DNA from: Odontesthes bonariensis
Taxonomy: Eukaryota; Chordata; Actinopteri; Atheriniformes; Atherinopsidae
Assembly: GCF_027942865.1 (NCBI RefSeq)
Contig: NC_134524.1
Span: forward strand, 2,175,036 to 2,239,035
Direction: 5' to 3'
DNA: 64,000 nucleotides
In this document: in pieces, positions 12,320 to 62,795 of the stretch
Layout of the letters: each line of letters starts with the position of its first letter
Numbering within the stretch: position 1 is the first letter of the stretch
Translations under genes and position numbers: made by a program
The notes under the pieces: generated by a model
Databases searched by the model: none
The model's input: only the letters and a program-made list of their open reading frames with translations
What the model was told of the DNA's origin: nothing

Positions 12320-12349
12320 TGGAGCAGCACCAGATTGTGAACGCTCACC

Positions 12350-13026: not shown

Positions 13027-13056
13027 TGGAGCAGCACCAGATTGTGAACGCTCACC

Positions 13057-14124: not shown

Positions 14125-16473
14125 ATCAACTGTCTCTGCTTTGTTCAGCTGCTCGGTGTTCTGTCTCATGCTCTGTATCCCAATAAAGTCTCAGACTCGT
14201 TGGTTTCAAACTTTGAACACTGAGACAGATTGAGTGGAACCTGGAAAAGGCTTGAACTCAGTCCCTATGAAAAGAAAATGAAAAGAGAAAGTTTAGGATT
14301 CAACCTTTCAGTGTGTAGTTGGTGCATGTAGTTGTCTTATCCACCAGTGACCTCACATTTCCCCTGATGATCGAGGGAAGAAATGCTTTAAACTTCCTCC
14401 TCCTTTTCCTCCAGTTTCTTCCTGCTCTGCATCCTAGACGTCTCCTCTTCAGCTCATCCAGATTTCGGGTATTTTTCCAGCCATTTTTGGGCTTTTGTGA
14501 AGCTCAGTTAGCTGCACCAACAGGTGAACAACTTTCCCATTGCTACGGTTACGCATCATAACAGCTGTGAAAACCTACCAGAGTGACCAGCAGAGGTCCT
14601 TCCAGCAGCATCCACACCAGCTCAGAAACATGTTTCAGAAGTCTCTGTTTTCACACAGAAAATCTGAAGAAGATGCAAAGAATTCTGGGATAATGGTGCT
14701 GACCTGGTTCGGTTCCACCTGAACCCAAAACATTTAATCCGGAGTCAAAAGCTTCCATCCAATACGTATCATCAATCTACATTTATAAATAACTAAAGCT
14801 GAGACATGAGTTTATCATTTTATTTTTTGAACTAGAATTATATTACGGTGGAATTCTGCAGTTAAAGAAAGAGGAAAACCTCCATTTAACCAGGAGTTAC
14901 AGCAGATTAAATCTATAAGTTAGTGTGAATATAAACATATATGGTGAAAAACACTAACTTCATGGTGGCACTGGAGGACACTCAGGTATTCTGCAGAAGC
15001 ACAGGAGTTCATCCCCTTCAGATAATGAATATCTGACGCTGATTCCTGCTTTTAAAAGAATCAATGAGAAATCCCCAGTGAGACGACGCTGCCACCAGAA
15101 GGTCAGATTGGAACATTACACTATTGTTTGGATCCAGCACTGTGTTCTTCAACAACCTTCAGTTTTACAGATCATTACGGAGGTGAAAAAAGTGAACACA
15201 AACTCCTGAAAAACACTGAAGCACAGAAGCAGCGCTCAGTGTGCTTTGGGAGCAGGAACCCCAGAAAGACTTCTGGGGACTGAGGGGATTTTCCTCATTT
15301 TTACGTCCCTTCATTCATTTGCCTTTTTCAAGCACTTGTTATTACTTATTTGAATTGGCTGATGTGACAATTCTTCATGCTGCTTTCTGCTTTTGATTAG
15401 TTTCAGGTGTAGTCTGAGTAAGAGGAGAGAATAATGCAAAACAAGAAACTGCAGCACTGATCTGACACGGCTGGATCTCAGCAGGAAACACTCCCTGAGA
15501 ACCAGATCTAACGTGTGACTTCCACTGCGAGTCAGCTCAGTTACAAACTGGGTTTAACTTCTGAGGTTGGTCTCTGACTGAGGGACTGTCTCTGTCACGC
15601 TAACAGCCCCTCCGGCTGGCTCGCCATGTTTCGCCACATATACACAACATGACGGGGTTCATTCGGGGGAGGTGACTTCACTGATGACCATCTGCATTCA
15701 GGAAGACCGTCCTGCGTAACATTCAGTGGCTACAGCGACTGTCTTGCATTTCTGGAGGCTACTTCCTGTTCAGCCAGGACCATAGCTTAAGTCATGAGCA
15801 TCATACAGCTGTCTGGGAAGTACAGGGAACAACTCCAAACCTTTTTCAGACTGCGTTAAAGATTTCTGGGTCTTTGGGGAAGATGATAAGGGTCAACTTT
15901 CCCTCGTAACCAAACACACATTTTCTTTAAAAATATCTGTGTAGCAAGAACATGAAAAGCATGAGAAAAGTTAACATCTGACCTTTAATGAAATGCAGAA
16001 CAATGAAATACAGACGAGTGTAAAGCTCGACTTCACATCAAACTGAAATGATATATTGCTTCTTCAGATGTTTACAGAAATACCCACAGCTGGTGCAAAG
16101 CTACTTTGTGGATCTTAGCTTTAAACAAAACAAATATGTTCAGTATAACAGAATAAACATGTTTCTACTTTCAAACAGACTGCATTTTGTTCTGTCCATC
16201 AACTCACAATTGATGCCATGTTTGTCTTGAACGTCGGGAGATCCGTCCCCAGTTAAAGCAATCCCAACTAATTATAAAGCACTTTCAATGGTTCTTCAAA
16301 CATGTGCTCCCCACAGAACATTCAGAACTAAAGTCCTGACAAGAGAAGGTGGTAATCCACAAAGAAGATTTTTAATCTGAACAAAGGCAAGGCTTCTGAT
16401 TGGTAGTTCCAGTTGCTGCTCCCAGGTGAATGTTTGCTTATCTGCCGTAAAAATTGTTGTTGATTTCAGCCAA

Positions 16474-17088
16474 TCATTTCTCTGCAGTGTGACTACGTTG
16501 GTGTCTCTTTAGACTATCTAATCGAGTGAAAGCTGCCCCACACTGACCACAGATGAAAGGTTTCTCTGCAGTGTGAATAAGTTGGTGTGTCTTTAGATTG
16601 CCTAATGTAGTGAAAGCTGCCCCACACTGACCACAGCTGTATGGCTTCTCTCCTGTGTGAATGCGTTGGTGTCTCTTTAGATAAACTAATTGAGTGAAAG
16701 CTGCCCCACACTGACCACAGCTGTATGGCTTCTCTCCTGTGTGTATACGTTGGTGTCTCTTTAGACTACCTAATGTAGTGAAAGCTGCCCCACACTGACC
16801 ACAGCTGTATGGCTTCTCTCCTGTGTGAATGCGTTGGTGTCTCTTTAGATAAACTAATTGAGTGAAAGCTGCCCCACACTGACCACAGCTGTATGGCTTC
16901 TCTCCTGTGTGAATACGTTGGTGTGTCTTTAGACCACCTAATGTAGTGAAAGCTGCCCCACACTGACCACAGCTGTATGGCTTCTCTCCAGTATGAATTA
17001 TCTGATGATACCTCAGATTTGATCGTTTGATAACTTTCCCACAGTCCTTACAGCAGTGCCATCTGGATCTCTCTTGGGCTCTACGTTT
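16474..17088 (-). CDS. C2H2 zinc-finger protein, finger exon of locus B (7 fingers)
   Basis: An open exon of 204 codons plus TGA after the acceptor [18 protein letters not shown], a divergent first finger (WHCCKDCGK), then six CGQCGAAFT fingers. Fingers 3 and 5 are identical ([12 protein letters not shown]), again a two-finger duplication. It has the fewest fingers of the four loci. Cys and His ligands are complete in every finger, so it can fold. No ATG lies in the exon; the nearest upstream in-frame codon is a TTG that is part of the splice acceptor. Confidence 0.87.
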
Positions 17089-17345
17089 CTGCAATGACAG
17101 AGGGGAAGAAGACTTAGATCCTTTTGAAGTTCACAAAAAAGATTTTGTCTAAGCTAACCTACGCTAACCAACATATTCTATCTAGAGCTGGACAGACCGA
17201 GCCACACAGGTCTCGATATCTCAGATCAAACGTGAACGCTGAGGGTGCGTTTATAAGTGCCCTCAGCTATCAGCACTGTGCTGTGATGTGTTCTACACAC
17301 GTTCAGCTTTTTAAGCAGTAAACTCTTGCATGTTGCTCTTTTACT
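17089..17345 (-). promoter_or_regulatory. ZNF locus B promoter and leader
   Basis: Same TATA-box promoter as the other loci (TATAAA on the minus strand, 17250-17255), with the polypyrimidine acceptor next to the exon. Confidence 0.6.
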
Positions 17346-17400
17346 AATTCTTTTTGTCATGATGAAACTCTGAAAAGGAACTTGAGCTACAATATTTCAG

Positions 17401-17419
17401 ATAGATAGATAGATAGATA
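17401..17419. repeat. (GATA)n microsatellite at arm breakpoint
   Basis: About five ATAG units. The palindromic partner is at 39013-39037. The RTE element is inserted directly beyond it. Confidence 0.9.
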
Positions 17420-39000: not shown

Positions 39001-39012
39001 AAACAGCAAAGT

Positions 39013-39037
39013 ATCTATCTATCTATCTATCTATCTG
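39013..39037. repeat. (TATC)n microsatellite
   Basis: Six tetranucleotide units; mirror of the run at 17401-17419. Confidence 0.9.
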
Positions 39038-39049
39038 TAGCTCAAGTTC

Positions 39050-39337
39050 CTTTTCAGAGTTTCATCATGACAAAAAGAATTAGTAAAAGAGCAAAAAGCA
39101 AGAGTTTACTGCTTAAAAAGCTGAACGTGTGCAGAACACATCAGAGCACAGTGCTGATAGCTGAGGGCACTTATAAACGCACCCTCAGCGTTCACGTTTG
39201 AGCTGAGATATTGAGACCTGTGTGGCTCGGTCTGTCCAGCTCCAGTTAGAATATGTTGGTTGGCGTAGGTTAGCTTAGAGAAATCTTTTGTGTGAACTTC
39301 AAAAGGATCTAAGTCTTCTTCCTCTCTGTCATTGCAG
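39050..39337 (+). promoter_or_regulatory. ZNF locus C promoter and leader
   Basis: Shared ZNF promoter with TATAAA at 39172-39177, the TCTTCCTCTCTGTCATTGCAG-type acceptor (AG at 39336-39337) and a TTG, not ATG, before the exon. A candidate start is ATG TTG at about 39253-39258: splicing after it would join the finger frame in phase, but its donor is weak. Confidence 0.55.
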
Positions 39338-40120
39338 AAACGTAGAGCCCAAGAGGGATCCAGATGGCACTGCTGTAAGGACTGTGGGAAAGTTATCAAA
39401 CGATCAAATCTGAGGTATCATCAGATAATTCATACTGGAGAGAAGCCATACAGCTGTGACCAGTGTGGGGCAGCTTTCACTGCATTATCTAGTCTAAAGA
39501 CACACCAACGTATTCACTCAGGAGAGAAGCCATACAGCTGTGACCAGTGTGGGGCAACTTTCACTCAATTATCTAATCTAAAGACACACCAACGTATTCA
39601 CACAGGAGAGAAGCCATACAGCTGTGGTCAGTGTGGGGCAGCTTTCACTGAATTAGGTAATCTAAAGAAACACCAACGTGTTCACACAGGAGAGAAACCT
39701 TTCATCTGTGGTCAGTGCGGGGCAGCTTTCATTGGATTAGGTAATCTAAAGACACACCAACGTATTCACACAGGAGAGAAGCCATACAGCTGTGGTCAGT
39801 GCGGGGCAGCTTTCACTACATTAGGTAGTCTAAAGGCACACCAACATATTCACACAGGAGAGAAGCCTTACAGCTGTGGTCAGTGTGGGGCAGCTTTCAC
39901 TACATTATCTCATCTAAAGAGACACCAACGTATTCACACAGGAGAGAAGCCATACAGCTGTTGTCAGTGTGGGGCAGCTTTCACTCAATTAGCTAGTCTA
40001 AAGATACACCAACGTATTCACACAGGTAAGAAGCCATACAGCTGTGGTCAGTGTGGGGCAGCTTTCACTGCATCAGGTAATCTAAAGAGACACCAACGTC
40101 GTCACACTGCAGAGAAATGA
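39338..40120 (+). CDS. C2H2 zinc-finger protein, finger exon of locus C (9 fingers)
   Basis: Open exon of 260 codons plus TGA: KRRAQEGSR, the divergent WHCCKDCGK finger and eight canonical fingers with complete Cys2His2 ligands and TGEKP linkers. Contact residues differ between fingers (for example TALSSLKT, TELGNLKK, IGLGNLKT, TASGNLKR). It ends HQRRHTAEK, as in A and B. The 3' module follows (to about 41290), then about 2.2 kb more shared with B. It should be a nuclear DNA-binding protein; the partner or target is unknown. Confidence 0.88.
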   Translation, partial: KRRAQEGSRWHCCKDCGKVIKRSNLRYHQIIHTGEKPYSCDQCGAAFTALSSLKTHQRIHSGEKPYSCDQCGATFTQLSNLKTHQRIHTGEKPYSCGQCGAAFTELGNLKKHQRVHTGEKPFICGQCGAAFIGLGNLKTHQRIHTGEKPYSCGQCGAAFTTLGSLKAHQHIHTGEKPYSCGQCGAAFTTLSHLKRHQRIHTGEKPYSCCQCGAAFTQLASLKIHQRIHTGKKPYSCGQCGAAFTASGNLKRHQRRHTAEK

Positions 40121-43100
40121 TTGGCTTAAATCAACAACAATTTTTACGGCAGATAAGCAAGCATTCACCTGGGACCAGCAACAGGAACTACCAATCAGAA
40201 GCCTTGCCTTTGTTCAGATTAAAAATCTTCTTTGTGGATTACCACCTTCTCTTGTAAGGACTTTAGTTCTGAATGTTCTGTGGGGAGCACATCTTTAAAG
40301 AACAATTGGAAGTGCATTATAATTTGATGGGATTGCTTTAACTGAGGACGGATCTCCCGACGTTCAAGACAAACATGGCATCAATTGTGAGTTGATGGAC
40401 AGAACAAAATGCAGTCTGTTTGAAAGTAGAAACATGTTTATTCTGTTATACTGAACATATTTGTTTTGTTTAAAGTTAAGATCCACAAAGTAGCTTTGCA
40501 CCAGCTGTGGGTATTTCTGTAAACATCTGAAGAAGCAATATATCATTTCAGTTTGATGTGAAGTCGAGCTTTACACTCGTCTGTATTTCATTGTTCTGCA
40601 TTTCATTAAAGGTCAGATGTTAACTTTTCTCATGCTTTTCATGTTCTTGCTACACAGATATTTTTGAAGAAAATGTGTGTTTGGTTACGAGGGAAAGTTG
40701 ACCCTTATCATCTTCCCCAAAGACCCAGAAATCTTTAACGCAGTCTGAAAAAGGTTTGGAGTTGTTCCCTGTACTTCCCAGACAGCTGTATGATGCTGAT
40801 GACTGAAGCTGAAAGTTAAGGCTGTTCCAACACTAAAAGGGCACGAGGCTCAACTTCAAGCTGTGAAACTCTTTCAAATGTCTGTTGTGTTGGAATCAGA
40901 CGTGTGAACGCATTTTAGTCCAAACGTCATGGCTGCACTGAGGGAAAAGGCAGCTAAACAGGCTAACGCTACTTTGAATTGAACCGTTTAACAGGAGAAA
41001 ACTGAACTGATCTGTTTGTTGCTTCTACAACTGCTCAGTTACTCACACAATCAGGTACTGAGCAGATTTACCCAACAGACATTCTGCTGTAATCTCAGAT
41101 GCTCACGTAGTTTTAGTCCACAACTCTTCTTCTTCTTCTTCTTCTTCTGCCCCGACGGCTACACAACTTACCCAGAGCACCTGGTGGCAGAGTGTGCACA
41201 CGACACCCTTATACTTTATTGCATTGTATCTACAAACTGAAACGCTGATCATTTAAACCTGCTTCAGGCTGTTTCTGTTCCCTTTAGTTTTAAGCTGACT
41301 GTGTTTGGCGTACCCTGAGCATTTCAGTGGAAAATGTTCAGCACAGACTTGGAGCTGTATTGTGTTCTTGTGGTAACTACGTCCCCACAGCTATCATGTC
41401 CTTAAGAGTTTCTTAGAAAGCGCTTTCTGCCGCTCACAGTGGAAGAATCTCACTGACAAATCCCACTTTGGCCTAAAGATGTGATCAGCGGGGACTTTTG
41501 TGTGTTAGCGACTGGCGCTACGGTCCTGGCTGAACAGGAAGTAGCCACCAGAAATGCGAGACAGTCGCTGTAGCGACTGAATGTTATGCAGGACGGTCTT
41601 CCTGAATCCAGATGGTCATCAGTGAAGTCACCTCCCCCGAATGAACCCCGTCATGTTGTGTATATGTGGCAAAACATGGCGAGCCAGCCGGGGGGGCTGT
41701 TAGCGTGACAGAGACAGTCCCTCAGTCAGAGACCAACCTCAGAAGTTAAACCCAGTTTGTAACTGAGCTGACTCGCAGCGGAAGTCACATGTTAGATCTG
41801 GTTCTTAGGGAGTGTTTCCTGCTGAGATCCAGCCGTGTCAGATCAGTGCTGCAGTTTCTTGTTTTGCATTTTTCTCTCCTCTTACTCAGGCTACAACTGA
41901 AACTAATCAAAATCAGGAAGCAGCACGAAGAATTGTTACATCAGCCAACTCAAAGAAGTAATAACAAGTGCTTGAAAAAGGCAAATGAATGAAGGGACGA
42001 AAAAATGAGGAAAATCCCCTCAGTCCCCAGAAGTCTTTCTGGGGTTCCTGCTCCCAAAGCACACTGAGCGCTGCTTCTGTGCTTCAGTGTTTTTCAGGAG
42101 TTTGTGTTCACTTTTTCCACCTCCGTAATGATCTGTAAAACTGAAGGTTGTTGAAGAACACAGTGCTGGATCCAAACAATAGTGTAATGTTCCAATCTGA
42201 CCTCCTGGTGGCAGCGTCGTCTCACTGGGGATTTCTCATTGATTCTTTTAAAAGCAGGAATCAGCGTCAGATATTCATGATCTGAAGGGGATGAACCAGT
42301 GCTTAATTTGTAAATCATAAGGTGCCGGAACGCAAAGTACATATGACAGCTCAGGGATGATAAGATGCGTACAGGTCCCGGAACGTATACAGAAAGGTGC
42401 TGAAAACAACATGAAAATTTCCACTTGAAACGCTGTGGGACTTACAAGCCTCAATTTCAAATAATATCCATGGTATAAATGTTATGACGATAATTTATAA
42501 TTATTTTAGGCTAGTACGCAAAACATAGGCAAATGCCCACATCACCACAGGTGGGACTTCAGTATACAGCCAGCAATTAATTTCTCAACAGGTCTAACGT
42601 GTAAAAAATATATTTATTATTCAAAGATTGGCACGGCGGCCTATTAATAGACAGTATGTTTGCTCACCATATTTAGTTGTTTAAAACACCCCACATCACG
42701 AGCATGTCTGGATTGTCCTCTACCTCTTGTTTTCTGCTTTTACTGCGTGTGTCTGTGGCAGTTCTGTGTCCTTTGGCCACCCAGGGCCTCACGTACGGGA
42801 CTCACTGGATTTAATGTCCAACAAGATTTAAGAAGAGTAAAGATGACATGGTGGATGTGGGCATGTGTCAGCTTTAGTTATTTATAAATGTAGATTGATG
42901 ATACATATTGGATGAAATGTTTTGGGTTCAGGTGGAACAGAACCAGGTCAGCACCATTATTCCAGAGTTCTTTGCATCTTCTTCAGATTTTCTCTGTGAA
43001 AACAGAGACTTCTGAAACATGTTTCTGAGCTGGTGTGGATGCTGCTGGAAGGACCTCTGCTGGTCACTCTGGTAGGTTTTCACATCTGTTATGATGCGTA

Positions 43101-45415: not shown

Positions 45416-46386
45416 AGCTAGACCAGCGTATTCCATACTAAAGAAGATAATAAATGAAGCATTGGAGCTCCTTTCCTTTGCATTAGAAGAATTCAAACCA
45501 AAAAAAATCAGTTAGTAAAGTTTTGTAAGTAAAATAAACTATTAGGCAGACTATGTGTCCTACATTTCCCTAAGTTATTGCCCAACCTCCTATCTTCCTC
45601 TGAGAACTGTGTTTTTGAAGGAGACACTTTTAGAAAGTTGTTTGTCTAATTGTGGAACTTATTCTTTGTATTTCCATCTTGCCTCCAGTAGTTTAATGGA
45701 TTGTTTCTGAGGGTATTAGTCAGGAAACAGCTTCTTGTTCCTCTTCTGTGATGGAAAGGTTCACTTGTTCTCTCACTCACTATATAATGTTCACAACACA
45801 GTGAAGTCATTGGTGGGAAGGGCTACACAGCTAGTGCTGTATTTCAAACACTATTTCATTGAGACAGTGCTTCACAATAATCTGCCATAGCTTCACTGTT
45901 ATGTGTCGCATAACCAAACACCAGCATGTTGTAAATTATGTTTATAAACTGCAATAATCTTTTTTAATTGCACTGTTTAGACTTACACAAGCATTGACAG
46001 AAGCTGTGGTAGAGGGTGGTAGATATATTATGCATGCAGGATGGATGAAAGTGGGTGGGGCTCAGAGGTGGAGGCTTAGAAGAGGAGGTGGAGTTAACTT
46101 AGAGTGAATCACAAATAAAATAGGAACGATATGAATGACTGAATTACTAGTATCACTTGTTTAAATATAATTCCTTATGCCATTATGTGGTCTTCTAAAT
46201 CCTCATACCCCTCTCCCTTCTGGCTCCTGTACACAGCACACATTCACACAGGTAGGGTTCTGAGGGCGGGTGTGTTCTGTGGGGGGCAGCGGATGGGTCC
46301 ACGTAGGTGGTCCCCTTTGCTGCACTCTCCAGCCCCCCGCCCTTGTTTTAATTACACCTTAGACATCACTAATCATGAGACTCACA

Positions 46387-46421
<35 letters not shown>

Positions 46422-49400
46422 TAGGTTTTGGGGGGCGATAGCACTGAGTGGTATCTGGTGGGCGGGGCTCTTTGGGTATGTAGGCTGCCCGGAGGGCCGT
46501 GCTCTCAGTTCCACAAGGTTGCCTGCCCCTCAATTTTAAACGCTCACTATCAGGAAATATCAAAGAGCCAGAGCGGCGAGGGGAGGGGTCTTCCTGCACC
46601 CCTGTTGCCTGGTTGCTGCCTGGGGTGGGAGGGGCCAGGAGGAGTTGTCCTGCTGGTTCGGGGTCTGTGATGGCTGGGGGGCTGCTGGCCCCCGGATGTG
46701 CCCGCCGCGCCACACCCCAGCAGAGGTGGGGGATGGATGCATGTGCTGTGCGAGTGTGTGTGGATGCGTGTTTAATTATTTTTGTATTTTTTCTTTATTA
46801 TGACCATTTTTTTTTTGTTGTCGTTGTTGTTGTGTTTTTGTTTGTTTGTTTTTCTTATATGATTTATGGGGTGACTGGGTCCTGCTGTCCTCTGGCCTGC
46901 TTGTGCTGTTCCTGGTGGGGGGGGCACATTGCCTCTCCCCGCTGCTCGCGGCTTCACCCACCTGTGGGCACATCTTAACTCCCGGGGTGCTTGCCCAGGG
47001 GCACTGGGGCGTGCGCTGGCCCACTGCGGTTGGCTGTCTGGGGCGCCTGGCCCTCTCGGGTGTTGGGGGGGCCTCAGAGGGGTCTGATAACTGAAGGCTC
47101 TGCCTCCCAAACTGGCAGCTGGTTCCACAGAGAGGGGCCTGATAACTGAAGGCTCTGCCTCCCAAACTGGCAGCTGGTTCCACAGAGAGGGGCCTGATAA
47201 CTGAAGGCTCTGCCTCCCAAACTGGCAGCTGGTTCCACAGAGAGGGGCCTGATAACTGAAGGCTCTGCCTCCCAAACTGGCAGCTGGTTCCACAGAGAGG
47301 GGCCTGATAACTGAAGGCTCTGCCTCCCAAACTGGCAGCTGGTTCCTCAGAGAGGGGCCTGATAACTGAAGGCTCTGCCTCCCAAACTGGCAGCTGGTTC
47401 CACAGAGAGGGGCCTAATAACTGAAGGCTCTGCCTCCCAAACTGGCAGCTGGTTCCACAGAGAGGGGCCTGATAACTGAAGGCTCTGCCTCCCAAACTGG
47501 CAGCTGGTCCCACAGAGAGGGGCCTGATAACTGAAGGCTCTGCCTCCCAAACTGGCAGCTGGTTCCACAGAGAGGGGCCTGATAACTGAAGGCTCTTTCT
47601 CCCAAACTGGCAGCTGGTCCCACAGAGAGGGGCCTGATAACTGAAGGCTCTGCCTCCCATTCTACTTTTAGAAACTCTGGGAACCTCAAGTAAACCTGCA
47701 GTCTGAGAGCAAAGTGCTCTGTTAGGAAAATATCTTATAATTGGGGCCTGCCATAGCATTGCATAGGAGAGCACTGCCTCCATGCAAATGCATGGCAAGG
47801 CACCTATTACTATTCCGCTGGCAAAAGTCTATGGGATTTAACATTGAAAACGTGTCTCTTTATTTATAGGCTATATTTATTCTTCCGTCCACATTAATGC
47901 GGGCCCTATGGAATCGCACCTCCCAACAATATATATATCAAAACAACCGGCTCGATGAGTTTTCGCGGGCTATTACTTTTATTGAAGATTTGAGTTACCA
48001 TGGCAACGTAATAAGCAAAAAACAGCCCCCCCAAAGCCCCCCTAGAAATAAACAGGGGGTGAGGTGTTCCGGGCCCGTCCCACTGGGAGGAGGCCCAGGG
48101 GAAGACCCAGGACACGTTGGAGAGACTATGTCTCTCGGCTGGCCTGGGAACGCCTCGGGGTCCCCCCAGAAGAGCTGGAGGAAGTGGCCGGGGACAGGGA
48201 CGGCTGGGTTTCTCTGCTAAAGCTGCTGCCCCCGCGAGCCGACCCCCGGAGAAGAGGAAGATGATGGATGGATCGACAATCCTGAAGTAACAGATGCATG
48301 GAGCAGTTTTTCTGCATCACTCTGAGACAGGATGTTCCTGATTTTAACAATATTACAAAGATGAAAGAAGGCAGTCCTAGAAACCCGTTTTATATGCGAG
48401 TCAGAGGATAGATCCTGGTCAAAAATAACTTCAAGGTTCCTCACTGTAGAACCAGAAGCTGAGGAAATACCATCAAGAGTAACTATATAACCAGACAATT
48501 TCTTCTCAGGTCCAAAGATAACGGCTTCAGTTAGTAGAGCAGAAAGTTCTGAGTCAAATCTCTCAGTCAGAAACACTAAAATGAAGCATTTTATGAAGCA
48601 TATTTCATTTATTCAGCCACATCAGCTCAGAGTCTCGGTACCAAACCCTGAAGGTCGATCAGGTCGAATGGAAACACCATGTAGTATTTGATGTTTTAAT
48701 GTCCTCACGCCACCAGCCTGTCTGCCTCTCAGGGTTGCTATGGAAACAATGAGGTCGCCAGGAACAGAGCTTGTTGACGTCAGTCAGTCTCAGCTGGTGG
48801 TCCTCACTCAGGACTCTTTCTTCCAAGTTCGACCTGATAGCCAGGCTATACATATTTCATTATTTTAGATATTTTTTGTACATATGGACTTGACTTGTAC
48901 GTTAAACTAACTCGAATGTTTCTTCCCTTTAGTTCTGACCTCAGTGATGTCCAACAGAAATCAAGGTCAGTAAACTAGAACAGTTTGTTTGATGATTCAA
49001 CCACTACAGTCTTTTAATTAGGAACTTTACTGTGAAACTGTTCAAACAAAGAATGTAAGAAACATTAAGTCATTAGAGGTTTATGTCTCTGATTTACAGG
49101 TATCTGTGCTGCATTTCACCAAGATTTTAGAAAAGATAGATTCATGGCGTTCATATCAGTCACATAAGCCGTCTTTGCAGCATTAGATTAAAAAACTGTA
49201 CGTCCAACATTTAAATAATGATGCTTTAATACAAACAGATGAGAAATACACTGGGCCTCAGAAGGTGCTTCTGGTTGTTCTTTTTTTGGAAAATAACAAA
49301 AACATCAGTGCAGTAATGTGCTTTGTCGTTTCACCGCTCACAGCTGGTCTGACTGTGAGTCCCAGCAGCTCTCAGTTCTTTATTAAAGACCCTGTGACTC

Positions 49401-52400
49401 TGAGCTGTGAGGAGGACCACAGCTCTGCTGGATGGACTGTGAGGAGGAACACAAGCAGAGGAACCAGGACTCAGTGTGGTGACTGGGGCAAAGCAGCCGG
49501 TTCCTCCTGTAACATCAGCTACATGTTCCCATGGGACAGTGGAGTTTACTGGTGTGAGTCCAGAGAGGGAGCAGCCAGTAACAGCATCAGCCTCACTGTC
49601 TCTGGTAAGATCAGACTGTGGAGTTAGTGCTGATGAAGCTGTGTGGAAATGGATGAAATGCTGTAGTTTGTCTCTGTGTTGAGGTGGATCAGTGATCCTG
49701 CAGAGTCCTGTCCTCCCTGTGATGGAGGGAGGTGACGTCACTCTGAGCTGTCGAACAAAGACCACTCCCCCCAACCCCCCAGCTGATTTCTATAAAGATG
49801 GCTCCCTCATCAGGGCGGAGCCTACAGGTCACATGACCCTCCACCATGTTACCAGCTCTGATGAAGGCCTCTACAGGTGTAGCATCAGCGGTCATGGAGA
49901 GTCTCCACCCAGCTGGATCTCTGTCACAGGTGAGGGTTACTCAGGTGACTCTTTAGAGTTCAGAACATTTTAAAGTTCATGTTTGACAGTTAATTATATT
50001 TACTTCCTTCTAGAGAAACCCACCACCTCTTCTCCTCCATCATCTTCAATTCCTCCTGGTTCCACCTCTCCTCTTTCCTTCCCTCGTCCTCCTCCTGCTA
50101 CTCTTTCTCATCATGAGGTGGTGTTATTGGCTGCCTGTGTTGGGGTCTTCCTGCTGTTACTGGTTCTACTGGTTCTACTGGTGAGACGATGTGTCCACAG
50201 GAAAGCTGAAGGTGAGACAGAGCGGTTGGTGTCAACATTTGATCCATCACTGATCTTTCCTGACAGCATCTTAAGAATACCTGCACTGAGCAAAGCTATG
50301 ATGCATCACAGAAACATTTTACTCGCTTTGCTTCCTTTCAGCCGACGTTGGAGGAACAGAAGAAGACGTTGCATACAGCGACCTGAAAACATTAACTCAT
50401 CCACAGCAGCCGAACAGAAAAAACAGAGGTAACGCTGTTCTTTGTGTGCTTCACTCAGTGGGTCTACATGGTGAGATTAATAAGATTACAGCTGTAGTTG
50501 GGTTATGCTCCTTATTTGAGCAATGGTAATTCTCCTTGGATATATGGTGGTGAATGAATGGGATCAGAGGCACAAAGCGTGTCATATGATAGGTGGCGCT
50601 GTACCCATCCCAACTGTTGCTAATAGAGCCACTTCCTGTTGACCTCTTCACCATCAACAACAACAACAAACTCAGGCATTGGAGAAAGATGGCGATAATT
50701 ACCCTTGCTCAACTCATTATGGGTGCCAATGCCGAAGGCATTATTATGTGTGCCATTATGGGGGCCAAAAAGGCCTATTTTAGAGGCCTTATAACTCAGC
50801 TATAAAGCATAACACAGACCTCATTCAAAGTTTATATGTGACGGGAGACTCTCAGCTTTAACTGAACCAAAGGGTTTGTTGATACATTATACAGCTTTGG
50901 CACAACGGCAGTTTACGTTTTAGGAAGACTACGTCTCGGCCGAGGTGTTTCTCCCACTCTGTTTCTCACTCTGAATTCGATATTGCACCAATTCCTCAAA
51001 CAAATGTCTCTCATGTCCGAAATATCTGCCCGATTTGAACGAATTTTACTTCGAAACGTAGGCATTTTTGTCCTCTTTCACAGAAAGTCAAATACATTGA
51101 CCTCTGCCACACAGATTTATCATAAATTGCCTCTGAGCCCAGAGGGCGCCTCTCCATTTCCATTATAAACGCCTAAAATCATCAAATTCAGGTGAAAAAT
51201 TATTTTAAAACTGCCATAAAAAATGAGCCACACAGAGTAGCCAAATGAAAATCACACCGCTGGCTTCTGCCGTCTCCTGGGGCGCTGAAGGTTCAAAAAT
51301 TATTTGGATACGACTTTTACTTTTCGAACAGCGACCGTTTGTTCGAGACAGTCGAGTGCAGTCAAAATTATAGTCTAATTTTAAGAAGCCATAGTGTGTG
51401 CACATATGTCAGTTTGCTCTCTGTCTAACACAGACGAGCCGCAGCTGGTTCCGTCTCCATAGCAACGCCTTATTAGCCTGCTCTGTTCTAACTCCTGTTA
51501 CCGGGGCAACGCCTTGTTAGCCTGCTCTGTTCTGAGACTGCTTATGAGGGCAGAGCCAAGATGGCTGCCCTGTTATAACAGCTTCATGTTATAAATCTGA
51601 TCTGCGTTTCTCCTTTAAACTGATAGTGAGGGGAAGTTTGAAAATACCCACAATGCAATGGGAAAATGCATTGAAAAGCACTTACCGAGGCCATTTTGAA
51701 AATGACATAAAAGCTGTATTTTAAACATTACCTTGATAAACATTACATGGCTGTCTACAGCACACCTGTCTTAGGACAGGAATCTCTAAAGACAGACCTG
51801 TCTTTCAATGAGAAAATCAATCATCGAACCAAAAATGACTAAAACTGCCCTGTTTTGGAGGCCTCATAACTCAGCCATACGACATCACAGAGACCTCATT
51901 CAAAGTTTATATGTGACAGGAGACTCTCAACTTCAACTAAACTAAACTTTTTTTTATAGGGCGGGCAGTAGATTGGCACCCATCAAAATTTCTTCAGAAA
52001 TGTTCTAGTTCTTAATGTAATTTAGCCAATAATCCAATCCTTTCAGTGCCATGTAACCCCACTGAGTGAGTCCAACTCAACTTTATTTAAATAACACATC
52101 ATCAAATCAAAATGACTAACTAGAAAGGACACAACCATTAAAATAAGCAATGCAAACCTTAAATCAGACCCAAGTATCAATGCTTTGTCTTATAGCAGCA
52201 GAGCGGAGAGAGAACTTTACATCTTCCTCACCAGTCTTCTCTTTTCTTCATTCAAATTCGTCTTTTTGGGGATTTTCCACAAACCAACACAACATCTAAT
52301 CACCCCAGAGTCTACAGCTCCCCGTTGGTGTGTATTTCAGCACCTGACAGTCAGAGCTGAGCTGGACTCGGTCTGTGGTTATTCTGCTAACAGACTAACA

Positions 52401-54015
52401 GCTCTGTGGTCGTCCAGCTTCCTGTTTTTGATGAAAACGTGTCAACTAAATGTGGACATGACCAGGTTTCACTGCTGATAAAGGAAACAACAAAACAATT
52501 CTTGGAAATACATTTTTATGAACTCTGCACTAAGAGCAGTTTGTTCTTCACACATTGATATTAATATTATTATTAGTGGTACTGTGCTGTGCTGTCCTGT
52601 TCACATCTAACCCTGCACAGAAAGAATAACTTCATTAGGTAAATATATGTGCTGCAGCTGTTATATTAATGTAATCTTTCCTTATTTAACCCTGCACAGA
52701 AAGAATAACTTCCTCATGGTAAATATATGTGCTGCAGCTGTTATAATAATGTAATCTTTCCTTAGTTAACCCTGCACAGAAAGAATAACTTCCTTATGGT
52801 GAATATATGTGCTGCAGCTGTTATAATAATGTAATCTTTCCTTAGTTAACCCTGCAATGAAAGAATAACTTCATTAGGTAAATATATGTGCTGCAGCTGT
52901 TATATTCATGTAATCTTTCCTTATTTAACCCTGCACAGAAAGAATAACTTCCTCATGGTACATATATGTGCTGCAGCTGTTATAATAATCTAATCTTTCC
53001 TTAGTTAACCCTGCACAGAAAGAATAACTTCCTCATGGTAAATATATGTGCTGCAGCTGTTATAATAATGTAATCTTTCCTTAGTTAACCCTGCACAGAA
53101 AGAATAACTTCCTCATGGTGAATATATGTGCTGCAGCTGTTATAATAATGTAATCTTTCCTTAGTTAACCCTGCACAGAAAGAATAACTTCCTCATGGTA
53201 AATATATGTGCTGCAGCTGTTATAATAATGTAATCTTTCCTTAGTTAACCCTGCACAGAAAGAATAACTTCCTCATGGTAAATATATGTGCTGCAGCTGT
53301 TATAATAATGTAATCTTTCCTTAGTTAACCCTGCACAGAAAGAATAACTTCCTCATGGTAAATATATGTGCTGCAGCTGTTATAATAATCTAATCTTTCC
53401 TTAGTTAACCCTGCACAGAAAGAATAACTTCCTCATGGTGAATATATGTGCTGCAGCTGTTATATTAATGTAATCTTTCCTTAGTTAACCCTGCACAGAA
53501 AGAATAACTTCCTCATGGTGAATATATGTGCTGCAGCTGTTATAATAATGTAATCTTTCCTTAGTTAACCCTGCACAGAAAGAATAACTTCCTCATGGTA
53601 AATATATGTGCTGCAGCTGTTATAATAATGTAATCTTTCCTTAGTTAACCCTGCACAGAAACAAAACCTTCCTCATGGTAAATACATGTGCTGCAGCTGT
53701 TATAATAATGTAATCTTTCCTTAGTTAACCCTGCACAGAAAGAATAACTTCCTCATGGTAAATATATGTGCTGCAGCTGTTATAATAATCTAATCTTTCC
53801 TTAGTTAACCCTGCACAGAAAGAATAACTTCCTCATGGTGAATATATGTGCTGCAGCTGTTATAATAATGTAATCTTTCCTTAGTTAACCCTGCAGAGCC
53901 CGATTCAGCTGCTGTGTACTCTGCAGTGAGGACAGACCACGTCAGCTATGGAGAAGTCGTCTTCAGAGACCGTAAAGACAAAATAAAGACCCGAGGTACA
54001 GCAACTTTAACCTGA
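44686..54015 (+). CDS. Fc-receptor-like Ig-superfamily inhibitory receptor, 7 exons
   Basis: Spliced model of 324 codons with every intron in phase 1, as is usual for Ig-superfamily genes. Exons: 44686-44716, 48933-48965, 49344-49604, 49684-49929, 50014-50211, 50342-50428 and 53897-54015. Domains: leader (1-21, weak), Ig domain 1 (22-108; VTLSC ... DSGVYWC), Ig domain 2 (109-190; VTLSC ... DEGLYRC), Pro/Ser stalk, transmembrane (about 226-248), then a tail with ITIM-like VAYSDL (Y268) and VSYGEV (Y303). Fish Fc-receptor-like proteins have this layout. It should be a leukocyte surface receptor recruiting SH2 phosphatases. Exons 1 and 2 are the least sure. Confidence 0.75.
45372..45409. repeat. 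(TA)n microsatellite in intron 1
   Basis: About 19 TA units. Confidence 0.95.
46382..46420. repeat. (CA)n microsatellite in intron 1
   Basis: About 18 CA units with one interruption. G-rich sequence follows to about 47070 without a recognisable gene. Confidence 0.95.
47070..47660 (-). repeat. 55-bp minisatellite derived from L2 coding sequence
   Basis: About 10-11 copies of a 55-base unit. The edge unit runs into true L2 sequence at 47656-47760 (minus-strand [13 protein letters not shown], then [11 protein letters not shown]). Units encode the L2 tail motif [11 protein letters not shown], then WNQLPVW. Because 55 is not a multiple of 3, successive units cycle through three frames. None contains a stop, giving a spurious 340-codon ORF (46776-47798). 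Confidence 0.9.
47656..47770 (-). mobile_element. L2 LINE fragment at minisatellite edge
   Basis: Minus-strand [16 protein letters not shown], an L2 C-terminal block upstream of the amplified segment. It is part of one element with 48276-48560. Confidence 0.7.
47771..48063. other. Unassigned insertion within the L2 fragment
   Basis: Separates the two L2 pieces. No recognised gene. Confidence 0.3.
48064..48275 (+). mobile_element. LINE C-terminal end with GGAT tail
   Basis: Frame [20 protein letters not shown], then [19 protein letters not shown] and [11 protein letters not shown], then a stop and GATGGATGGAT. This C-terminus is common in one teleost LINE family; the pieces at 55657-55980 and 57630-57915 belong to the same type. 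Confidence 0.8.
48276..48560 (-). mobile_element. L2 LINE fragment
   Basis: Minus-strand [19 protein letters not shown], then [20 protein letters not shown] and [19 protein letters not shown]2 reverse transcriptase thumb region, interrupted by the + strand LINE tail. Confidence 0.8.
48561..48932. other. Rest of intron 1
   Basis: Nothing recognised; ends in TTTCTTCCCTTTAG, a good acceptor for exon 2. Confidence 0.4.
48933..48965 (+). CDS. Ig-receptor exon 2 (short leader exon)
   Basis: Thirty-three bases between TTCTTCCCTTTAG and GTCAGT, encoding [11 protein letters not shown] in phase 1. Short second leader exons are typical for Fc-receptor-family genes. Confidence 0.5.
49344..49604 (+). 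CDS. Ig-receptor exon 3 (Ig domain 1)
   Basis: Starts after CGCTCACAG, ends before [26 protein letters not shown], with the second cysteine in DSGVYWC, plus extra cysteines TQC and SSC, a feature of Fc-receptor-like D1 domains. Confidence 0.9.
49684..49929 (+). CDS. Ig-receptor exon 4 (Ig domain 2)
   Basis: Starts after TGTGTTGAG, ends before [26 protein letters not shown], then [10 protein letters not shown] and [19 protein letters not shown]: a C2-type Ig domain of the FcR class. Confidence 0.9.
50014..50211 (+). CDS. Ig-receptor exon 5 (stalk and transmembrane)
   Basis: After CTTCCTTCTAG. A Pro/Ser/Thr-rich stalk, then [20 protein letters not shown] and RRCVHRK as stop-transfer. No charged residue lies in the membrane segment, so no adaptor-pairing signal is seen. 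Confidence 0.88.
50342..50428 (+). CDS. Ig-receptor exon 6 (first ITIM-like motif)
   Basis: After TTCCTTTCAG, before [25 protein letters not shown]-x-Y-x-x-L fits an ITIM. Confidence 0.85.
50690..51990 (+). mobile_element. Dispersed repeat of about 1.2 kb in intron 6, copy 1
   Basis: Inverted relative at 61650-62795. Edges show TATGGGTGCCAATGCC on the left and TTGGCACCCATC on the right, a short inverted pair. Within it, about 100 bases are directly repeated (50768-50860 and 51850-51945; CATTCAAAGTTTATATGTGA). No coding found; class unknown. Confidence 0.6.
51991..52599. other. Intron 6, unassigned part
   Basis: No recognised gene or repeat between the dispersed element and the 80-bp minisatellite. 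Confidence 0.35.
52600..53896 (+). repeat. 80-bp minisatellite ending in the exon 7 splice acceptor
   Basis: About 16 units with an exact 80-base period in the later part (start-type AATATATGTGCTGCAGCTGT). Each contains CTTTCCTTAGTTAACCCTGC followed by ACAGAAAG. The final unit continues as CTGCAG into exon 7. The first units are slightly shorter and more divergent (52600-52920). Confidence 0.95.
53897..54015 (+). CDS. Ig-receptor exon 7 (second ITIM-like motif, stop)
   Basis: Encodes [20 protein letters not shown], then VVFRDRK and [11 protein letters not shown] to TGA at 54013-54015. VSYGEV fits V-x-Y-x-x-V. GTACAG after CCGAG (53994) could be a donor to a further exon, so the C-terminal seven residues are uncertain. 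Confidence 0.75.
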
Positions 54016-54806
54016 TATCATCTAAGTGAGTTCAGAGAGGAAAGGTTCAGCACCTCCTGCTGCCTCTGAGCTCCTCTGTGGGAGATCCTTTGCCCTACAT
54101 CTGCACCTCCCCCTGGTTCCTCTTCTCTTTGTGGTTTTCCTCTTGATTGTGCCTGTGTTTTTAAGACTTTTATACAAAATTAGATCACTTTAGTTATATT
54201 TTAGAGGCTGAATGCAGTTTGGAATGATCAGAAAACATCAGGAAGTTGAAACATTTTCAGTAAAGTGGATTTGATCTGAAATGTGGAAGAAGAAGTCTGC
54301 AAACATGTAAAACTGTTATTCAGAAATGAAAGAATATTTTCACTGTAATTAGATTTCTATCAAAGAATATAATGTTCATTTTAACTGGAATTTCTATTTA
54401 TATTGTAGTTAAACACTGAATTATTCAATCCAACAGATCTAACACTTTGATGATGAAACCTTTTTATTTTCGTTGTTTCTTTTGATCATTTCTGGATTAA
54501 ATGACTTAATAACTTCATGAAGTTAAACTAATAAAACCAAAATCTCTGCGTAAGCCAGGTGAGCTGTGATCATGTGATGAACACACTGATGACCTCAGAC
54601 TTCATCCAACCATCAGTTCACCTCAAGCTAAAGATGAGGTTCATAAAATAACTGAAGGCTGTTTTAAAGACTTTCTCAGGTTTTTTAGGCTTGTTGCTGC
54701 ATCAGTGTTAAAATAAGAACAAATGTTTCTGTAAATGTTCAAATGTACTCATTATTTTTGCACTTTGTTGCTGTTGTTTTGCCAATAAATGATTGCACTT
54801 GTAACT
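54016..54806 (+). terminator. 3' UTR and polyadenylation signal of the Ig-receptor gene
   Basis: AATAAA at 54784-54789 in GCCAATAAATGATTGC, followed by a GT-rich stretch (TGTGCTGTGTATTT) as expected for cleavage. Confidence 0.65.
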
Positions 54807-55656
54807 CTCTGTGCTGTGTATTTATCTCCATGTTACTCAGCATGGAACAGGGAGCGTTCCCTCCCTGAGAGGAAAGTCGTGTCAGATATCATGTTTTTCT
54901 ATCATTCTATGAGCTGTGAGGCCAAACAGCAACAGACTGCAGCTGGTTTTTCTCAGGGTTGAAGGTTGTTTTTGTCGCTTTTCTGCCACAAGAGGAAAAC
55001 AGCACAGCGTCATCCACAGGAAGCTCCCTCAGGAAACTGTTGGTGGCCACAGAAGTGCTTTAAATTAAAGGCCAAACTGAAGCTAAAGCAATGATGACAA
55101 CACTGATAATCTAATGACTAAGTTCCCATGAGCCTTTGCAGTCAGCAGGAAGCAGCCCATGGTCAGAGCCTCCTCTGCTGCTGCTGAAGTTCATTTCAGC
55201 CCAAAGTGAGACCTGACGGGGATGTTTCAGGAGCTGCTGACACACACTGAGCAGCTTTAGCTCAGAACACCTGGAACACACACACATCATGCTGTCATCA
55301 CGTGGTTTCCTGGCTCCGCCCCTCTGATGGCGCCCCTCAGCCTGCCTGATGGCATTCAGGGGCAGCGGGTCGGTGAGACTCCCTCTGGTGGCAGAAAACA
55401 CAATTACACAAACAAACCTTTCCCACCGTCTTCACTGCCGGATGGATGGATGGATGGATGGATGGATGGATGGGTGGGTGGGTGGATGTTTTCCCTCATT
55501 GTGTCGTCGGGTTTAGGAATAAAAGTCCAAATGGAAAGGTGGTTATTTCAGGCTCTGCCTTGTGACTCTCTGCATAGGGACAGCCACCCCTCACCTCCAT
55601 AACTCATCTGATGTCGATACTCTTTCAGAAAGACACACGTGATGACCACATGCCAA
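54807..55656. other. Intergenic, with (GGAT)n
   Basis: (GGAT)n with a GGGT end at 55439-55487. No gene recognised. Confidence 0.45.
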
Positions 55657-55980
55657 TTATCGCTGTGGCTGCTTAACCTTAAACGGAAGATGTTTTTGAA
55701 GCCTCGAGCCGGATCGTCTCTCCTCTCCAGAGCAGCTGAAGGTCAACAGAACCAGATGGAACCCTGAGGTTCCCAAAGCAGATGCCTCCTCCCCCCGACT
55801 ACACATCCAGATCCTGTCCATGTAAACCACAAACAGGGTCGGAGACGAGGGGCAGAACTGGTGGAGTCCCCATAAACCAGAACCACTTCCCAACCAGAAT
55901 GCAGACACAGCTCTGACTGCGTTATCCAGTGACTGGATATCCTGTTAAAGTGACTTCTGCGGCACCCCCCACAGACTCCC
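55657..55980 (-). mobile_element. LINE reverse transcriptase fragment
   Basis: Minus-strand SPTLFVVYMDRIWMCSRGEE followed by a decayed palm region. Same family type as 48064-48275 ([11 protein letters not shown] end). Frameshifted and short. Confidence 0.6.
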
Positions 55981-57915: not shown

Positions 57916-58752
57916 GGATGCATCTCAGCATCCTTGCAGGAAACGTTTTTTTACGCTCATTTAACGCTCTATAATTAGGGACCGACCAGTGAAACTGCAA
58001 GGACCCCCCACACCTCACATTTGATCAAACTCCTCCTACGTATTTAATGCTACAAACTTCAAACTTGGCTAGGCTACTCCTAAGACATGGGGGGATAAAA
58101 TCATGGAAAAACTTTTTCAAAACTCAAAGGGTGTGGCCGTGGCGACACCACAAATTTATGACTCGCCATGAAAACTTAAGTCGCTTTTAACTCCCACATA
58201 CATTATCCAATCTGTCCCAAACTTCAAACGGTAATTGCTGGACCCAGCCTGAACGTGCACATATAAAATAGTGATATCCACCTACAGCGCCACCTGCTGG
58301 TGGTCGGAAACATCTTTTTTTTTTCCACATCTCGCATTTGATTGAACTGCTCAACTTGCTTGATGTTTGACTGTGTTAGGAGAGTTGCTCACGAACTAGT
58401 TCATCATATTGTCAAAGTAAGCTCATTTCAACAGGTTTAGCTAGTTTTACGGCATAGGGCTGCCGTGCCATAGCGATTCACAAAACATTTGTGCATGGTA
58501 CCACGGGCGTAAGTAAGGCCACACCAACACACTCCGCTTTGTCTTGCCTTTCTCCTCCTCATTTGCATTTAAAGCTGCAGACCCTAAAGAGCTCATTCTG
58601 AGGATCCTAAGAAAAGCTAATTTTTGGGACTGGCTGTAATTCTACACCAAGAAAAAAATTGGGGGGAAAAAAACTCAGATATAGTATATCGGGACCACAA
58701 AAACCTATAAAAATATATAAAAGTCTCCATTTATTTTCATGCCATGGAACCT
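57916..58752. other. Unassigned part of the locus D insertion
   Basis: Contains no recognised gene; the segment CAGCGCCACCTGCTGGTGG (58285-58303) is a motif seen in many vertebrate repeats (CTCF-like core), here on context only. Confidence 0.3.
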
Positions 58753-59781
58753 TTAAGCCAATAATTTCTCTCCTGTGTGACTACATTGGTGTCTCTTTAG
58801 ATTACCTAATTGAGTGAAAGCTGCCTCACACTGACCACAGCTGAAAGGTTTCTCTCCTGTGTGAATACGTTGGTGTGTCTTTAGATTAGATAATACAGAG
58901 AAAGCTGCCCCACACTGAACACATCTGTATGGCTTCTCTCCTGTGTGACTACGTTGGTGTATCTTTAGATTACCTAATGTAGTGAAAGCTGCCCCACATT
59001 GACCACAGATGAAAGGTTTCTCTCCTGAGTGAATACGTTGGTGTCTCTTTAGACTACCTGATTCAGTGAAAGCTGCCCCACACTGACCACAGATATAAGG
59101 TTTCTCTCCTGTGTGAATACGTTGGTGTGTCTTTAGACTACATAATCTAGTGAAAGCTGCCCCACACTGATCACAGATGTAAGGCTTCTCTCCTGTGTGA
59201 CTACGTTGGTGTGTCTTTAGACTACCTAAATGAGTGAAAGCTGCCCCACACTGACCACAGATGTATGGCTTCTCTCCTGTGTGAATACGTTGGTGTATCT
59301 TTAGATCAGATAATCTAGTGAAAGCTGCCCTACACTGACCACAGCTGAAAAGTTTCTCTCCGGTATGAATACGTTGGTGTCTCTTTAGATTACCTAATGC
59401 AGTGAAAGCTGCTCCACACTGACCACAGCTGTATGGCTTCTCTCCTGTGTGATTACGTTTGTGTGTCTTTAGATTACCTAATTGAGTGAAAGCTGCCCCA
59501 CACTGACCACAGCTGTATGGCTTCTCTCCTGTGTGAATACGTTGGTGTGTCTTTAGATAAGATAATCTAGTAAAAGCTGTCCCACACTGATCACAGCTGA
59601 AATGTTTCTCTCCTGTGTGAATACGTTGGTGTCTATTGAATACGTTGGTGTCACACTGGTCACAGCTGTATGGCTTCTCTCCAGTATGAAGCCTCTGATG
59701 ATACCTCAGATTTGATCGCTTGATAACTTTCCCACAGTCCTTACAGCAGTGCCATCTGGATACCTCTTGGGCTCCATGTTT
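58753..59781 (-). CDS. C2H2 zinc-finger protein, finger exon of locus D (12 fingers, one damaged)
   Basis: Open exon of 342 codons after TCATTGCAG: KHGAQEVSR, the divergent WHCCKDCGK finger, then a shortened second finger (YSCDQCDTNVFNRHQRIH) that lost five residues including the helix core, then ten canonical fingers. The stop is changed: where A, B and C have TGA the codon is TTA, and reading goes on three codons (LLA) to TAA. Homology to the other loci ends right after this TAA. Probably still able to make a protein, but with a weaker second finger and a different 3' end. Confidence 0.85.
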   Translation of the reverse strand, partial: KHGAQEVSRWHCCKDCGKVIKRSNLRYHQRLHTGEKPYSCDQCDTNVFNRHQRIHTGEKHFSCDQCGTAFTRLSYLKTHQRIHTGEKPYSCGQCGAAFTQLGNLKTHKRNHTGEKPYSCGQCGAAFTALGNLKRHQRIHTGEKLFSCGQCRAAFTRLSDLKIHQRIHTGEKPYICGQCGAAFTHLGSLKTHQRSHTGEKPYICDQCGAAFTRLCSLKTHQRIHTGEKPYICGQCGAAFTESGSLKRHQRIHSGEKPFICGQCGAAFTTLGNLKIHQRSHTGEKPYRCVQCGAAFSVLSNLKTHQRIHTGEKPFSCGQCEAAFTQLGNLKRHQCSHTGEKLLA

Positions 59782-60090
59782 CTGCAATGACAGAGAGGAA
59801 GAAGACTTAGATCCCTTTGAAGTTCACACAAAAGATTTCTCTAAGCTAACCTACGCTAACCAACATATTCTAACTGGAGCTGGACAGACCGAGCCACACA
59901 GGTCTCAATATCTCAGATTAAACATGAACGCTGAGGGTGCGTTTATAAGTGCCCTCAGCTATCAGCACTGTGCTCAGATGTGTTCTGCACACGTTCAGCT
60001 TTTTAAGCAGTAAACTCTGGCTTTTTGCTTTTTTACTTATTCTTTTTGTCATGATGAAACTCTGAAAAGGAACTTGAGCTACAATATTTC
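59782..60090 (-). promoter_or_regulatory. ZNF locus D promoter and leader
   Basis: Same promoter block, TATAAA on the minus strand at 59942-59947, intact acceptor. Its outer edge is followed, after about 80 bases, by the LINE head at 60172. Confidence 0.6.
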
Positions 60091-61649: not shown

Positions 61650-62795
61650 AAATATAAAGTTGAGTCTACTGTCACAAACTTTGAATGAGGTCTCTGTGAT
61701 GTTGTATGGCTGAGTTGTGAGGCCTCCAAAATAGGGCAGTTTTTGGCTCGTTAAGTGCTTTCAATGCATTTTCCCATTGCACTGTGGGTAATTTCAAACT
61801 TCCCTTATCTATCAGTTTAAAGGACAAAGGCAGATCAGATTTATAACATGAAGCTGTTATAACAGGGCATCCATCTTGACATGTACGCACACTATGGTTT
61901 CTTAAAATTGCACTAATAATTTTGACTGCACTCGACTGTCTCGAACAAACGGTCGCTGTTCGAAAAGTAAAAGTTGTATCCGAATAATTCTTGAACCGTC
62001 AGCGCCCCAGGAGACGACAGAAGCCAGCGGTGTAATTTTCATTCAGCTACTATCTGTGGCTCGTTTTTCATGGCAGTTTTAAAATCATTTTACACCTGAA
62101 TTTTCTAATTGTAGGTGTTTATAATGGGCGGAATGTCAGCTGGAGGGCCGACTCTCTGCGCTCAGAGGCGATTTGTGATAAATCTGTGTGGAAAAGCTCA
62201 ATGAGTGTGACTTTGTGTGAAAGAGGACAAAAATGCCTACTTTTTGAAGTAAAATTTGTCCAGATTGGGCAGATATTTTGGACATGAGAGACATTTGTTC
62301 GAGGAATTGGTGCAGTATTAAATTCAGAGTGAGAAACAGTGGGAGAAGCACCTCAGCTGAGATGTAGTCTTCCTAAAACGGAAACTGCCGTTGTGTCAAA
62401 GCTGTATAATGTATCAACAAACCCTTTGGTTCAGTTAAAGCCGAGAGTCTCAGGTCACATGAACTTTGAATGAGGTCTGTTATGCTTTATGGCTCAGTTA
62501 TAAGACCTCTAAAATAGCACATAGTACTCGTTAAGTGCTTTTCAATGTATTTTCCCATTTACAATTTTCCCACTTTTTCCCATTTGGCCGGAATTCCTTT
62601 CGACGAATGAGAGCCAAACTTAATAGCACACCATTCCCGATCGATGCTTTTTAGACCGGTCAGACCATCACTGCTAGACTAGAAGCGCGCCGAACTTTAG
62701 AACGGAAACGGGAGAATAATAAAAGTCTGGCAACAGATTAAATATGTGTGTCTAATGCCTTTGGCATTGGCACCCATAATTAGTTATCTCCCCAT
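61650..62795 (-). mobile_element. Dispersed repeat of about 1.2 kb, copy 2
   Basis: Inverted relative of 50690-51990, again with direct repeats near both ends (GAACTTTGAATGAGGTCT at 62461 and a close match at 61679). Ends at GGCATTGGCACCCATAATTA. Confidence 0.6.

Follow-up and report, generated by a model that had tools for sequence, protein, structure and literature searches.

In Odontesthes bonariensis, an 80-bp minisatellite lies at the end of what is presumed to be the last intron of an Fc-receptor-like gene, and 15 of its 16 full units carry a decoy acceptor resembling the true one. Probably the array expanded by slippage within the intron, together with which it is normally spliced out, and effects of its copy number are absent or small. 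The whole stretch of DNA that was analysed, 64,000 nucleotides in length, is referred to as the window; all features of the gene and of the array lie on its forward strand.

Should the true site be used faithfully, the locus would represent a natural construct with 15 near-identical acceptors, each with branch region, pyrimidine stretch and AG, upstream of the real one. Because the signals at these 15 sites are nearly equal, a faithful choice would have to rest on the context provided by the downstream, terminal exon, and the long-standing question of 3' splice site choice would become testable in one gene. Should splicing not be faithful, array length would constitute a simple inherited control of the tail structure of an inhibitory receptor.

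The host gene and other repeats in the window

Upstream of the array, the gene comprises exons encoding Ig domain 1 (49344-49604), Ig domain 2 (49684-49929) and the stalk and transmembrane region (50014-50211), whose hydrophobic stretch was recognized by eye. They are followed by an upstream cytoplasmic exon (50342-50428), which contains the ITIM pattern VAYSDL, has the donor GAG/GTAACG and leaves one base over at its end. The presumed last intron of 3468 bp (50429-53896) separates this exon from the presumed last coding exon (53897-54015) with the stop codon TGA at 54013-54015. When joined from 49344 to the last exon, these five exons form one open frame of 302 residues, a count that excludes the 5' exons. 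Two Ig domains were identified with Pfam, domain 1 alone being below the curated cut-off. Comparison of the extracellular part with solved structures gave FCRL5 as the best match (E 2.5e-20), with Fc-gamma receptor I as the next. By these matches the predicted Ig domains are FcR/FCRL-related, and the host gene is, as judged from its deduced product, Fc-receptor-like.

The tail contains three tyrosine motifs, namely VAYSDL in the upstream exon and AVYSAV and VSYGEV in the last exon. The preliminary description had called the latter an ITIM exon; this holds for VSYGEV, which like VAYSDL matches the ITIM pattern, while AVYSAV is only ITIM-like. The same description had proposed that this exon, numbered exon 7, is a cassette with tunable inclusion. 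The exon carries the stop codon and is followed by polyA-type signals (ATTAAA at 54496, AATAAA at 54530 and at 54784-54789), which argues against a cassette that is included or skipped; it is probably terminal, and inclusion would then be the wrong readout. Two donor-like GTs within the exon, at 53925 (score 5.51) and 53995 (4.09), speak against the terminal reading. Here and below, splice-site scores were obtained with vertebrate weight matrices that were not trained on Odontesthes bonariensis, and the branch-point pattern and the ITIM consensus are likewise general definitions.

Several other repeats are present in the window. At 47076-47659, some 1.7 kb ahead of the Ig domain 1 exon, there is a second minisatellite with a 55-bp unit (10.6 copies, 97% matches). 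Within the host intron, a region at 50711-51946 has an inverted copy at 61657-62785 (87% over 643 bp, 92% over 133 bp) and contains a direct repeat of 98 bp (at 50774 and 51849); the region and its inverted copy are likely to represent a mobile element. Comparison of 45501-55800 with the window, hits of the 80-bp and 55-bp arrays being left out, yielded 10 rows, 9 of them in this mobile-element-like part of the intron and one short one at 54683-54735. Four further regions (3059-5258, 15784-17419, 39012-40810 and 58752-60083) contain 84-bp repeats that resemble zinc-finger units. Among the 14 longest minus-strand self-matches listed, these regions are 86-94% mutually identical in inverted orientation over 0.9-1.3 kb. 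A 59-bp unit is nearly the same in two arrays about 450 bp apart (12343-12602 and 13050-13765; 98% matches).

Structure and sequence variation of the array

TRF reported a single 80-bp minisatellite at 52608-53895 with 16.1 copies and 96% matches, whose score of 2380 is the highest of the 38 rows for the window. Unit alignment resolved it into 16 full units (52608-53885) and a closing 10-bp partial copy, TAACCCTGCA (53886-53895). About 16 units before the exon had been described previously, which is correct, but the span of 52600-53896 given for them has to be narrowed, as the array ends one base before the intron does and the final intron G (53896) lies outside it. The array holds the pyrimidine stretch of the acceptor and the A of its AG without the final G, and makes up 37% of the host intron. 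In the one haplotype examined it consists of head-to-tail units within the range of about 10-100 bp that defines a minisatellite or VNTR, and chance is not a serious alternative as the source of such an array. A second copy of the unit was not found elsewhere in the window, where the best match comprised 12 bases (E 0.46; 52561-53900 masked), and a dispersed repeat family within the window was rejected for this reason.

Fourteen of the 16 units have a length of 80 bp, and two, unit 1 (52608-52686) and unit 4 (52847-52925), have 79 bp and constitute the divergent unit type. Mean pairwise identity of the 16 units is 96.1%, 15 of the 80 columns are variable, and the consensus sequence is present in units 2, 6, 8, 9, and 13. 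The 3' part of the last full unit, unit 16 (53806-53885), at the same time supplies the true acceptor with its branch-point/pyrimidine region. Palindromes of the sequence GCTGCAGC are located in the array in 16 of the 18 cases in the window, both strands counted.

Variants are distributed across the units in a loosely periodic pattern, a weak signal with a permutation p of 0.02 at lag 5, which is the best of five lags and uncorrected. This pattern, together with the difficulty of assembling near-identical 80-bp units, would be compatible with an artefact in which the repeat number was misassembled or collapsed. Such an artefact is extremely unlikely. The divergent units 1, 4, and 14 and the dispersed point variants indicate that several distinct units exist, and an assembly error would alter the count of units, not the presence of the array. 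Variable columns are scarcer in the acceptor-like segment of the unit than in its remainder (1 of 25 versus 14 of 55 columns, p 0.03; 0 of 25 versus 9 of 55, p 0.05, with units 1 and 4 left out), in a test with segment limits set post hoc and with non-independent units. This low variability could hint at constraint; it is noted here, and no claim is made.

A stable RNA structure was rejected, since three units fold with -40.5 kcal/mol compared with a mean of -45.3 for 300 GC-matched 240-mers from the window, 77% of which are at least as stable. A known structured RNA was rejected as well, since a scan of 50200-55600 against Rfam gave no match that reached the gathering score. Exact pattern scans of viral and prokaryote contigs gave 0 matches in each, as expected of collections not intended for animal DNA.

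The repeated unit might also be read as an intronic enhancer, in which the array would form a predicted homotypic cluster of sites for immune-cell transcription factors. The motif GAGGAAGT, which we take to be ETS/PU.1-like, occurs in most units, and 12 of its 18 copies on both strands of the window are located in the array. The presumed E-box CAGCTG is found in all units (16 of 98 in the window), and expression of Fc-receptor-like genes is known from blood cells. However, an array multiplies any motif of its unit, and a factor-like octamer is expected in 80 bp, so that an enhancer function has only a slim chance of being correct.

Decoy splice signals and their predicted products

In 15 of the 16 units a CAG directly follows TAACCCTGCA; the exception is unit 4, which reads ATG in this place (CAATG) and has lost the decoy AG. 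According to the preliminary description, each unit carries CTTTCCTTAGTTAACCCTGC and then ACAG. This applies exactly to 12 of the 16 units (3 and 6-16), the full string CTTTCCTTAGTTAACCCTGCACAG being found at 12 places and CTTTCCTTATTTAACCCTGC at 2 places. Without ACAG, the string occurs 14 times, including once at the true acceptor and once in unit 4. Besides unit 4, the deviating units are 2 (from 52687) and 5 (from 52926), with CTTATT instead of CTTAGT, and unit 1 (from 52608), in which TAACCCTGCACAG is present and the decoy CAG stands behind a pyrimidine stretch different from that of the other units. The row of near-copies of the true acceptor ahead of the exon is nevertheless real. The 26 bases preceding TAACCCTGCA at the true site are identical before the starts of 9 of the 16 units (3, 4, 7-10, and 13-15), and the decoy acceptors score 4.61 (unit 1) and 4.81 (14 units) compared with 4.40 for the true acceptor. 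Downstream of TAACCCTGCA, the true site continues with G/AGCCCG and the units with CAG/AAA. Judged in this way, local acceptor signals would hardly separate the decoys from the true site.

That a decoy scores well does not show that the site is used. The true acceptor has the second lowest score of the five acceptors scored in the host gene (2.07-10.73), and this score is equalled or exceeded by 11.3% of the 4735 forward-strand AGs in the window. The 12 top-scoring AGs of the host intron, with the best at 51083 (10.85), are all located outside the array, and look-alike sites alone are therefore not predictive of use.

The presumed true 3' splice site region (53873-53896) contains two AGs 12 nt apart, a TAG at 53884 (score 5.02) and the CAG ending at 53896 (4.40), and both are in frame with the last exon. 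Use of the TAG is predicted to keep the frame and to add VNPA. Because this site scores higher, the use of 53896 is an assumption, which is shared with the preliminary description. Candidate branch adenines for the true acceptor are located at -24, -29, -32, and -35. In the rough branch pattern, TTAAC at -9 and CTCAT at -62 score above these candidates, but the former is too near to the AG and the latter is separated from it by other AGs. According to the scanning rule, as stated in the available excerpt of PMC1431707, splicing uses the AG that comes first once about 12-15 nt from the branch point have been passed. Under this rule the true AG can be reached from no branch points other than those of the last unit, and from branch points at -29 to -35 scanning would reach the TAG at 53884 first.

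For the favoured reading of a minisatellite that is normally spliced out, the following course is proposed. The array probably originated from the 3'-terminal part of the last intron, expanded by slippage or unequal exchange, and the duplicated block would have had an upstream TAACCCTGCACAG as one boundary and, as the other, the TAACCCTGCA belonging to the real acceptor. These two sequences are found at the upstream edge of the array and at the acceptor, respectively. Duplication of a block with these boundaries creates a decoy acceptor at each unit junction, where the branch-point/pyrimidine stretch of the real acceptor would be joined to the CAG of the upstream copy. The array would normally be removed together with the intron by use of the acceptor at 53896, behind which the presumably last exon follows. 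In terms of exon definition, the true site would be favoured by its downstream context, that is, a terminal exon with a polyA signal as opposed to a spacing of 18-19 nt between AG and donor at the decoys. As local signals are common to many decoys, any fidelity of splicing must rest on this downstream context. Leakage to decoys would alter, and in most cases shorten, the tail of the receptor but leave VAYSDL in place. Besides the possible hint of constraint mentioned above and the ABCA7 precedent discussed below, further points stand against this favoured reading: the local signals are slightly better at the decoys, scanning that starts from branch points of upstream units should end at decoys and not at the true AG, and exon definition leaves the decoys possible, because read-through from a decoy to the common polyA site would be a possible terminal exon.

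Realistic outcomes of the array, as predicted from its reading frames, are the use of a decoy with an altered tail or the inclusion of a microexon. For all 15 AG-bearing decoys, unit 4 being left out for its missing AG, read-through is predicted to reach a stop ahead of the last-exon tyrosines, with loss of AVYSAV and VSYGEV and retention of VAYSDL. Seven residues are added in 13 of these 15 tails (ERITSSW in 11, ERITSLW in unit 3 and ETKPSSW in unit 14), and longer tails result from unit 5 (15 residues) and unit 1 (44 residues). The latter two tails contain chance matches to the ITIM pattern, SWYIYV in unit 5 and SCYINV in unit 1; loss of inhibition would therefore not be uniform.

Splicing could in principle depend on copy number, with decoys competing with the true acceptor and longer arrays leading to more short-tailed receptor, mostly ending in ..NRERITSSW with VAYSDL as the sole ITIM, and to weaker inhibition. 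As their stop codon would be situated in the last exon, such transcripts might escape exon-junction-dependent decay. That the decoy AG outscores the true acceptor in 15 of 16 units and that every read-through stops ahead of the last-exon tyrosines argues for such competition, while the ITIM-pattern matches gained by 2 of the 15 tails argue against it, and it is considered unlikely. Even less probable is a heritable dial, in which each unit acts as an extra acceptor of approximately equal strength and the three tyrosine motifs are replaced by a stable, mostly truncated one-ITIM tail, with an in-frame microexon from unit 1 in addition.

A donor-like GT follows the decoy position in all 16 units, at a distance of 18 nt in units 1 and 4 and of 19 nt in the other 14. 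The sequences are GTAAAT in 10 units, GTGAAT in 5 and GTACAT in 1, with scores of 3.27-6.61 compared with 7.02-11.79 for four true donors. The stretch of 18-19 nt between decoy AG and decoy donor, AAAGAATAACTTC, resembles a microexon. In unit 1 this stretch (52621-52638) comprises 18 nt, is in frame and precedes TAG/GTAAAT, whose score of 6.61 is near that of the upstream true donor (7.02); spliced in alone, it is predicted to keep the frame and to add six residues (ERITSL). An array that serves as a source of such microexons, defined by the decoy AG and a GTAAAT or GTGAAT donor, would be consistent with the order and spacing of acceptor and donor, which are right in each AG-bearing unit. When 4000 random 80-mers from outside ten listed arrays were tandemised, an acceptor of the unit's strength was present in 42% and a donor in 16%, and an acceptor followed by a donor in 5.3% at 10-60 nt and in 2.6% at 10-30 nt. 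The microexon look of the unit is thus mildly unusual, which counts in favour of this function, but the pair is too common by chance to require selection. Furthermore, 18-19 nt are very short for an exon, the unit donors have no G at +5, the matrix behind the scores was not trained on this species, and an early stop results from all five further combinations that were tried, each of which contains one or more stretches of 19 nt. A function as microexon source is consequently very improbable.

Comparison with known intronic arrays

The amphioxus minisatellites termed mirages are located in the globin genes BflGb6 and BflGb9, in Adh3 and in TnC, and PGBD5 repeats have been compared with them (PMC3087553, PMC3902484). 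As far as described in the available excerpts of these reports, mirages are similar to the fish array in being tandem repeats at intron ends with AG/GT splice signals in many units, as are the CAG in 15 of 16 and the GT in 16 of 16 units here, and the unit of the BflGb6 mirage takes in the 3' end of the intron (PMC3087553). In contrast to mirage units, which span the boundary and contain exon bases, the fish array, which ends at 53895, falls one base short of the presumed boundary (53896/53897) and includes no exonic base. It further differs from mirages by its location in an Fc-receptor-like gene, by its 16 units at 96% identity and by the probably terminal exon next to it. Regular splicing is reported in the same excerpts to be undisturbed by the AG/GT signals of mirages (PMC3087553, PMC3902484). 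The normal splicing described for mirages is the reason why an array that is inert, or nearly so, is favoured here, and it argues against a competition between decoys and true acceptor that depends on copy number.

The human ABCA7 intron 18 VNTR with its 25-bp unit is intronic as well, adjoins an exon and includes its splice site (PMC5954066); in the fish array, the pyrimidine stretch of the acceptor and the A of its AG lie inside and the final G outside. The ABCA7 VNTR is located on the donor side and has a C-rich 25-bp unit, whereas the fish array is located on the acceptor side and has an 80-bp unit. According to the excerpt available, cryptic sites in the VNTR are used, its length variation was determined by Southern blot, and expression data tied this variation to exon 19 skipping (PMC5954066), whereas the fish array is known from the sequence of one haplotype. 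The correlation of exon 19 skipping with VNTR length supports an influence of copy number on the choice between decoys and true acceptor, and full certainty about an inert array is withheld because of it. Within the same excerpt, cryptic donor use inside the VNTR was constant over length and exon 19 skipping alone varied (PMC5954066), which argues against such an influence.

VNTR6-1 in TERT intron 6 is another intronic VNTR linked to splicing, and its described effect on TERT splicing also supports an influence of copy number in the fish (PMC11830802). As excerpted, this link is through an expandable G-quadruplex and not through splice-site copies, and the three folded fish units have 35% GC. 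In fish, polymorphic minisatellites are known from introns of the Sparus aurata GH genes, which the available excerpt describes without mention of splice-site copies (PMC3045353). Among the matches listed, as represented by titles and abstract starts, there was no comparable minisatellite on the acceptor side of a vertebrate intron, and a search for literature on alternative splicing of teleost ITIM-bearing Fc receptor-like genes gave no match. By analogy with the ABCA7 precedent, as far as it is excerpted, an effect of copy number on splicing would be possible, and the mirage precedent argues against it. The array is most likely an acceptor-side counterpart of the ABCA7 VNTR that is akin to the mirages of amphioxus.
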